Below are positions 3,101 through 6,100 of a DNA stretch of 64,000 nucleotides, piece by piece (the stretch's first letter is position 1; the number at the start of each line of letters is the position of its first letter). Source of the stretch: Saccoglossus kowalevskii (taxonomy: Eukaryota > Hemichordata > Enteropneusta > Harrimaniidae); NCBI RefSeq assembly GCF_000003605.2, contig NW_003156735.1:319400-383399 (forward strand), read 5' to 3'. Made by a program: the position numbers and the translations under genes. The notes under the pieces are model-generated. The model was not told the DNA's origin and ran no database searches. It saw nothing but the letters and a program-made list of their open reading frames with translations.

Positions 3101-6100
3101 GTGAATATTTTTGTCATTTTTGGTAAAAAGTGATATTTTCGACTTCTTGTTAAAAACCGCAAGTCCAATCGCTTTGATACTACATATATAGGTACTACAT
3201 GTGGACCTCTCTCAGATTTGTTTATTTTGTAATGATATCTTTAATTCTCTAATTTTGGTGAATATTTTTGTCATTTTTGGTAAAAAGTGATATTTTCGAC
3301 TTCTTGTTGAAAACTGTAAGTTCGATTGCTTTGATATTACATATATAGGTACTACAATGTACATGTGGACCTCTCAGATTTGTTCATTTTGTGATGATAT
3401 CTTCAATTCTCTAATTAATTTATTTTGGTGAATATTTTTGTAATTTTCGGTAAAAAGTGATATTTTCGACTTCTTGTTAAAAACTGTAAGTCCGATTGCT
3501 TTGATACTATTCATATTGTTCATTTTCTAATGATGTCTTCAGTTCTTTAATTGAAATGTGCATTGCTAACAGCGGAGCTATCTTAGCCGATAGGCTGCTT
3601 GTTTATCATTTTCATAACAAATTCTATTTTCTATCTTATATATGGCTAGCCCATTCATTTGTTTCAATATTTTAGATGTAGACATTTTTTTCTGTGAAGA
3701 TAACTTCGATTCGCTGATTTTCAGGAATATTTTTGTCATATTTATTAAAAAGCAATTTTTGACTTATTGACTGTTTTTCCAAATGGCTCACCTTATTGCT
3801 TTTGTATATGTAAATACTTCCGTTGGATTGTTGATTTTAATTCTATAATTTTAGTGAATGACTAGCCAGATTGATTTGATATAATTGTATCTGCAAGTAT
3901 CATTTTGGCTGGACTTTTATTTTGATAACTTTCATTTTCAAATTTATGTCTTTATGAAAACAACCAACCAGATTGTTATATGTAGATATCTTGAATGGAC
4001 CACTGTCATATTGATTTGATTTATTCCTCTATCAGACTAATTTATTTAGTCTCTATAACTTCACTTTATACATTTTTAGTTAAAATTCTTGTTTTCTTAA
4101 AAATGGCTAGACATATTGATTTGATATTTTTTCTCATTTAGCATCTCAAACGGCTATAAATGCAGATAAAAATGTTTTTAAACTTCACACATTATGGGCT
4201 GTGGAATCTGAACCATGAAAAATAAAATAATTTCAGTTTATTAGCAAGACTAAATGCACCCTGCTGGGGTCAAATTTCCCATAAACTACATTAATTAAAA
4301 AAAAAAACTGTTCCCACACATTTGTATAAGAAACAATTATAATTTTCAGTACTGCAAAAAAGTTTGAATATAATTAATTGTGCTTGGTTATGTGATTTTA
4401 TATTCAATAATGTTTTCTTCCACTGTACCGACAGACTATTTGTGAAGGAACCGTACTAGGTGCCATCAGTGCTCGCTATGATTTCCAAACGGTTCTAATA
4501 GCAGCGGGCATAGTAGCTGTAAGTCTTGGATCAACGTCGGCTCTATAGCTCTCATTGTATAACCGTGCATCTACTGCACTGTGATGCTAGTATATACTGC
4601 TGCGATGCACTAGTTGTTTGTGTAGCCGAGACAGATAGATGGTGTGTTCATATGCACTAGTTGTTTGTGTAGCCGAGACAGATAGATGGTGTGTTCATAT
4701 GCACTAGTTGTTTGTGTAGCCGAGACAGATAGATGGTGTGTTCATATGCATGTATGCGGGGATATTAGGGTTTAATGTTGCATGGTTCTTTACTCCATAC
4801 AGACTTTATGTGAAGGTGTCTTACTCGGCGTTGCATGCAGTACGTACAAAACGGACACTGTACTGATAGCTGCAGGTATCACAGCTGTAAGTCTATATGT
4901 CTCATCTATTACTATGTGAAAAATTCATTGATGATGTTTGAACTTGACCCGATGACTTCGTGTAGTTTGAACTTTGACCTGTTTCTTGGAGTTTGAACTT
5001 TGATCAGTTTCATGTAGTTTGAACTTTGATCTGTTTCATGTAGTTTGAAATTTGACCTGTTTCATGTAGTTTAAAATTTGTTGTAGTTCATTTAGTTTGA
5101 ACCTTGATCAGTAATTTTTATGTAGTTCACGCTTTGACCTTCCATGTGATTTGAACTTTAACCTGTTTATTCTAATTTCTATTCAAACTTGAGTAAACAA
5201 ACCAAAAAAGTTACTTGGTTGTAAAAGTGTTTGATTGGCATATTTATTGTACAAATGTATATTACTTATGTTTTTTGAATTTATTTAGAAGATTATTTTT
5301 TTTTTTTTCTCTTTAATTAGGTGGTTGCATTCGCCTTAACTATCTTCGCATTTCAGACTAAGGTAGGCATTTAATACACTCCAGTTGCATAAACACTGAT
5401 GTAAATTGTATATGCAAATTCATGCAAATTTCACTTTATCATTAGTCATATCTGATTTTGGTGTGTAGTAGTTATTTCTCAGTGATTCAGGTAATATACA
5501 TGTAACTATATTTTCTCTATTAGAAACACATTTCTAATAAAAGTGCACATTAACCAAATGAGCAATGATATACAGCATTATCACATTTCACATGCTGTGA
5601 TAGGTTCAGACTCAGTCACAAGACACTGAATAAAAATGGCTCTGGCATTATCATTATTATGTTCATGACCACCATCCTTTGGGCAGGCAACAAATCGTTT
5701 GTCCTCACAAAGATGCGTTATTATCTAAATATAGACTTAAGACAAACACTAACCAGTTCTTTCACACCCTAATTTGCATTTAGTATTTGTAGAAATTTTC
5801 GATTGTCGCGACATATTTGTGATCATCTCGTAATTTGCGACTCTTCTTCAAATTGTGCGAGATCTTCATCTCATATTACACCATTTCCATTCCCTGATTT
5901 TGTAAATCATAATCATGGTGCCTTGTATGATTCTGAGATTTGTACAAATTATAATTTTGGTGCAAAAACAATGTGAGATTTATGTTATTAACAAATTAAC
6001 AAAAATGCAATCTGTGTAGAATGTACCTCATTGCTCAATATTTTCTTTTCTCAGATTGACTTCACTATGTTCAGTGGAATAATGTTTGTTTTTTTGATTG

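Follow-up and report, generated by a model that had tools for sequence, protein, structure and literature searches.

Duplicated and probably mutually exclusive exons in a Lifeguard/TMBIM gene of the hemichordate Saccoglossus kowalevskii

A gene of the Lifeguard/TMBIM type in Saccoglossus kowalevskii contains two adjacent exons of 84 nt, designated here A and B, which appear to encode alternative versions of the same membrane hairpin. The locus raises the question of whether each mRNA carries exactly one of them and, if so, by what means the choice is made. The whole stretch of DNA analysed, 64,000 nucleotides in length (C4611:319400-383399), is referred to below as the window. The reading that we consider probable from the sequence is that of a seven-transmembrane (TM) channel-like protein of the TMBIM/Lifeguard group, in which the exon duplication is old, one copy of A or B enters each mRNA, and a further choice is made between two last exons.

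Gene structure and the place of the duplicated exons in the protein

The gene was assembled from splice sites and reading frame (Table 1), and its isoforms with one copy of A or B are 243-245 aa long. The earlier note had described A and B as a duplicated pair, both in phase 0 and with GT-AG sites, separated by an intron of 284 nt and identical in 16 of 28 residues; the coordinates proved right to the base, the intron length and the identity were correct, and the splice sites are intact and the phases matching. Each exon is preceded by AG and followed by the donor GTAAGTCT, which is also that of exon 6055-6144. The two are aligned without gaps and share 47 of 84 nucleotides, and the duplication itself is confirmed by tblastn, in which B is recovered with the A-bearing spliced protein at E 6e-6 and A with the B-bearing one at 2e-5. 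No third copy was found in the window at E <= 1 with the spliced proteins. The former account was incomplete in other parts of the gene: exon 1 lies upstream of the window, and a duplication of the last exon was missed, whose two copies, alpha and beta, are identical in 34 of 46 aligned residues. As the last exon is duplicated too, 2 x 2 isoforms together with A and B are possible, and alpha and beta look like possible alternative last exons.

Table 1. Predicted exons of the Lifeguard/TMBIM gene (window positions unless a contig is named)
Feature	Coordinates	Strand	Remarks
Coding exon 1	C4611:316080-316176 (L005 6681-6777)		likely ATG; ~3.2 kb upstream of window start
Coding exon 2 (TM1)	40..118	+	GT-AG sites; frame continuity RH-AFIRKV
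Coding exon 3 (loop, TM2 start)	1819..1872	+	GT-AG; frame continuity
Coding exon 4 (TM2 to first half of TM3)	2359..2449	+	phase 0 end; donor TTT/GTAAGT
Alternative exon A (TM3 second half, loop ARYDFQ, TM4 first half)	4435..4518	+	28 codons, phase 0-0
Intron between A and B	4519..4802	+	284 nt
Alternative exon B (loop STYKTD)	4803..4886	+	28 codons, phase 0-0
Coding exon 6 (TM4 second half)	5321..5362	+	acceptor AG/GTG
Coding exon 7 (TM5)	6055..6144	+
Coding exon 8 (TM6, first part)	6576..6623	+
Possible alternative last exon alpha (TM6 end, TM7)	8665..8817	+	stop TGA 8815-8817; AATAAA at 8886
Possible alternative last exon beta	9624..9770	+	stop TAA; first downstream AATAAA at 10132

An assembly artefact was excluded as the origin of the pair: 37 of the 84 nucleotides are not shared by the copies, and their flanks are unrelated. 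In a protein search of the whole genome (572 Mb, 4,830 contigs; 17 matches from 19 scored candidates) no near-identical locus was found on another contig, the matches outside C4611 being 24-53% identical.

Several repeats accompany the gene. A 34-nt unit formed by the end of exon 6055-6144 and its donor (consensus ..CAAGAACAGGGTAAGTC..) is present in 7.3 copies at 6130-6378, and, because the unit includes the donor, the true donor of this exon is followed by a series of repeated donor-like sequences that form decoys. A perfect tandem repeat of 47 nt, in 3.1 copies, occupies 4605-4750 in the intron between A and B. Two related repeats in other introns, 2734-3580 and 6824-7442, both start with TAGCTCCGCTGT; the former contains 157-nt tandem units and ends in the inverse of its start, ACAGCGGAGCTA, while the latter ends in the altered form AAGCGAAGCTA. 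Together they look like a non-autonomous DNA transposon. Further along the window, on the minus strand, an open frame of 458 aa (20127-21503) matches the FAST_1 domain (PF06743, 2.5e-16) and probably encodes a FAST-kinase-domain protein.

The assignment to the Lifeguard/TMBIM family was borne out by a Pfam scan of six proteins, namely the four single-inclusion isoforms, the double-inclusion form and the form in which both exons are skipped. All four single-inclusion isoforms matched PF01027 (Bax1-I), whose cut-off is 34.1 bits, with scores of 143.3-156.1, each in one stretch from profile position 2 to 204 or 207 of 207. Exon A is less typical of the family, as isoforms with B score 8.9 bits more with either last exon. 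In an NCBIfam scan for the subfamily all matches were below their cut-offs. The protein has an E-E-Y motif before TM7, and the second half of its TM3 contains an acidic residue, presumably a resemblance to Lifeguard 4/GAAP (TMBIM4).

The search of solved structures with a profile built from two isoforms of the window gene and three pieces of paralogues returned only bacterial YetJ (three distinct sequences with E between 5.7e-8 and 7.3e-8), and a single-sequence search gave no match at E <= 1. In the alignment with BsYetJ (PDB 4pgr) both A and B extend from the middle of TM3 through the connecting loop to the middle of TM4, and the hydropathy segments at residues 101-119 and 127-145 fit this placement, so that the position proposed earlier for the pair is supported by two approaches. 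A 19-residue Kyte-Doolittle window gives seven hydrophobic segments in each of the isoforms with A and alpha, B and alpha, and B and beta. In an alignment of five sequences, two of which are window isoforms, D200 (TM6) and D228 (TM7) are invariant; they align with aspartates of BsYetJ and are present in both alpha and beta. By the residue correspondences in PMC4416878 these two aspartates match the BsYetJ pore pair Asp-171/Asp-195. Epitope mapping of GAAPs (PMC5451544) places both termini in the cytosol, so that the loop of A and B would be directed towards the outside or the lumen of the Golgi/ER; topology mapping of GAAP in the same paper favours six passes and a re-entrant region, not seven passes. 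Taken with these placements, A and B may be regarded as alternative versions of one module, in which a short loop joins the end of TM3 to the start of TM4.

Age and origin of the duplicated exons

The two exons are identical at 17, 21, and 9 of 28 first, second, and third codon positions, respectively. By the Nei-Gojobori method pN is 0.34 and pS 0.71, which corresponds to dN 0.46 and a saturated dS of about 2.2. When neutral change to 37 differences was simulated, 16 identical residues were reached in 0 of 20,000 runs in each direction, the mean being 8.3-8.4, and stop codons arose in all but about 46% of the runs. At the DNA level the exons are hardly alike (local alignment score equalled in 8 of 200 shuffles), and their 150-nt intron flanks are unrelated, their scores being equalled by 40 and 49 of 200 shuffles; the lack of similarity in the flanks indicates that the exons alone were kept. 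On this sequence comparison the pair is judged to be old and its divergence to have proceeded under purifying selection, which argues against a young relic.

These data bear on the possibility that one exon, more likely A, has recently been retired and the other is constitutive. The lower PF01027 score of the A-bearing isoforms would suit such a history, and selection may have acted until recently and have been followed by a recent loss of one of the two; but both frames are intact, the donors are identical and the acceptors plausible, and A has preserved the C-E-G and V-L-I-A-A-G framework in spite of saturated synonymous divergence, so that we regard a retired exon as quite unlikely.

The last exons give a comparable picture. 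Between alpha and beta dN is 0.14 and dS about 1.8, and the observed similarity was reached in 0 and 1 of 5,000 neutral simulations; by these estimates this pair is also old and its divergence constrained. The two do not differ over a stretch of 28 nt (8735-8762 and 9694-9721), which spans codons 25-32 (FAALNLYL) with their edges, while outside it the third codon positions differ at 20 of 38. This identity could reflect gene conversion or a constraint at the RNA level.

More Lifeguard-type paralogues lie on two contigs (L006/L007, L022, and L023/L024 on C4131; L008/L009 on C4199), and four paralogous loci were compared with the window gene. In one paralogue on C4131 a phase-2 intron divides the counterpart of A/B into parts of 38 and 46 nt, together 84 nt (L006 6053-6090 and 6678-6723), and the counterpart in the C4199 paralogue is split likewise; both were read at the level of single bases. 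For the third paralogue (C4131:108000-127999) tblastn gave a weak match to each half separately, and in the fourth (C4131:142500-151999) the second half alone was found. A second copy of either half was not found in the four loci, each of which holds one run of N of 2.9 to 7.3 kb. Since the 84 nt are split in two paralogues, the duplication probably came after intron loss, and the simplest order for the window gene, to judge by these exon structures, is loss of the intron and then duplication of the fused exon; the intron may instead have been gained in the paralogues.

Relatives were not found in viral contigs by a scan with the five-sequence alignment (40 pattern matches, with a tblastn check). 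One further contig (L025, C4830) is mitochondrial: translated with the invertebrate mitochondrial code it shows long open frames, and seven in-frame TGA in COX1 are read through. Lysine at AAA would speak against an echinoderm code. Here COX1 is encoded on one strand and two frames which we take to be ND1 and COX2 on the other, an arrangement that is, to our knowledge, unusual.

Probable use of one exon per transcript and possible control of the choice

Mutual exclusivity of A and B is likely on account of their exact exchangeability and of the parity of hydrophobic segments. It would not be enforced by the reading frame: loss of frame with nonsense-mediated decay (NMD) is excluded, because the length of 84 nt is divisible by three and both double inclusion and skipping keep the frame open, neither form having an early stop. 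The difference lies in the predicted membrane passes. By the hydropathy count, which is a crude window method, the seven segments found with one copy become eight with both (with alpha) and six with none (with alpha); the additional segment arises where the TM4 start of A is joined to the TM3 end of B, and in the skip form a segment is lost where the TM3 start is joined to the TM4 end. Thus zero or two copies would remove or add one membrane pass and invert the C-terminal half of the protein, which bears the pore, and selection should favour exactly one copy. This topological parity is in our opinion the best single argument for exclusivity, though the GAAP mapping speaks for six passes with a re-entrant region and the double form scores well in Pfam.

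The same data were considered with regard to independent cassette exons, by which A and B would often be included together and the protein would gain a membrane segment. Double inclusion is in frame, the 284-nt intron is long enough to be spliced, and the double-inclusion protein reaches 153.6 bits in PF01027, above three of the four single-inclusion forms; the preserved frame together with this score means that exclusivity is not forced by the sequence. However, the match of the double form is broken into two stretches, as is that of the skip protein (110.5 bits), and with eight segments instead of seven the part from TM4 to TM7 would be inverted. According to these facts the use of A and B as independent cassettes seems very unlikely to us, and inclusion of exactly one exon in each mRNA remains the most likely outcome.

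Several ways of making this choice were compared. Steric exclusion received no support from the A-B intron, as its 284 nt are far longer than a steric block needs. There was also no sign of a distant branch point near the donor of A, since before B the nearest AG lies at -36 and yUnAy sequences at -28 and -11.

Competing RNA secondary structures of the docking/selector kind are a mechanism known for duplicated exons in several insect gene clusters, as described in PMC6071210 and PMC9013439, and if present here they could enforce the use of one copy, being compatible with the preferred explanation. Duplex energies were calculated for 17 intron pairs, with 40 shuffles each, and perfect helices for five pairs, with 30 shuffles. 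One of the 17 comparisons gave a z-score of -2.8; the other 16 lay between -1.5 and +2.1, and the best single helix was equalled in 6 to 27 of 30 shuffles over the five pairs, a test in which stacking energies were approximate, G-U stacks were set roughly, and the 1,985-nt first intron was represented by 2450-2749 and 4135-4434. Docking/selector complementarity beyond chance was thus not found in the 17 pairs by energy or in the five pairs by helix, with a single sequence, and control by such structures appears highly improbable.

The other option compatible with one copy per mRNA is a factor of the Rbfox type that would act on (U)GCAUG, repress B and beta, promote A and alpha, and in this way couple both choices. 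The hexamer TGCATG, which we take to be an Rbfox site, stands 56 and 24 nt upstream of B (4747 and 4779) and 41 nt upstream of beta and is absent from all seven other acceptor regions examined (60 nt each); its two occurrences in the 284-nt intron compare with 0.2 expected from the window rate. Against this, nine motif classes were tried, and among the 36 acceptor pairs four others have at least as many private hexamers in common, seven in one case. In view of this hexamer control the TGCATG pattern is a lead and not evidence, and regulation by an Rbfox-type factor is considered unlikely. The element TGTGT also occurs in the A-B intron more often than expected (six against 0.6), all six within the 47-nt repeat array.

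In the favoured explanation, then, trans-acting splicing factors would decide between A and B for each transcript, and neither the frame nor steric spacing nor strong RNA pairing would be responsible. Selection of one of the last exons would be a second and independent step that exchanges the TM6-TM7 pore region and the C terminus, and with up to four isoforms the ion leak or the partner binding of a single channel might be adjusted. A more extensive hypothesis, with two ancient independent switches (A/B and alpha/beta), four channels that differ in gating or permeation, co-regulation of the Rbfox type, and exclusivity maintained by topology, is speculative, and as a whole we hold it to be doubtful.

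Relation to known systems and significance for the family

Tandemly duplicated exons are present in about 10% of animal genes according to the portion of PMC9013439 consulted, and A and B have the properties of this class: they are adjacent, homologous, equal in length and phase, open, and provided with splice sites. The mutually exclusive exons of animals treated in the same portion are likewise adjacent, homologous, and of the same length and phase, and encode alternative forms of one protein segment; in A and B exclusivity is a probable property. A functional parallel is offered by the Cav3 channel of the pond snail with its alternative exons 12a/12b (PMC9694082) and by the alternative selectivity-filter forms of NALCN (PMC3557258), in which a short loop or a pore segment is exchanged and ion permeation may be altered, as it may be in the window gene; the parallel is an analogy, since both channels differ from the window gene in fold and family.

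With the TMBIM/Lifeguard proteins, including GAAP/TMBIM4 as covered by the accessible part of PMC4416878, and with BsYetJ (4pgr), the window gene has in common PF01027, the seven hydrophobic segments, the TM6 and TM7 aspartates, and the E-E-Y motif that precedes TM7. It is set apart from these relatives by two TM3-TM4 exons and two TM6-TM7 last exons in one gene. The earlier suggestion that such exons are undescribed in this family is consistent with the open-access literature as judged from titles and the beginnings of abstracts, among which no description of duplicated or mutually exclusive TMBIM exons was seen, the annotation of other animals, which may well list such isoforms, being outside the scope of this search. 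They are also absent from the passages of PMC8446389 (on the fly family), PMC6719933, PMC4416878, and PMC9013439 that were available, and splicing, isoforms, and exons are unmentioned in the accessible text of PMC5451544; an N-terminal splice variant of GRINA is mentioned in the available passages of PMC6719933. Duplicated alternative exons are a known class, and their occurrence in a TMBIM gene appears new within the open-access literature searched.

The finding provides an example of a reason in membrane topology for the use of one of two in-frame duplicated exons, where loss of frame and NMD cannot police the outcome, and the interest of the A/B pair is increased by the second duplicated exon, which carries the pore aspartates. 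In a GAAP the channel and anti-apoptotic effects were separated by point mutations in the C-terminal part of the protein (PMC4416878). A natural gene with two selected TM3-TM4 hairpins and two pore-bearing C termini would offer ready-made viable variants of such a protein for comparison.
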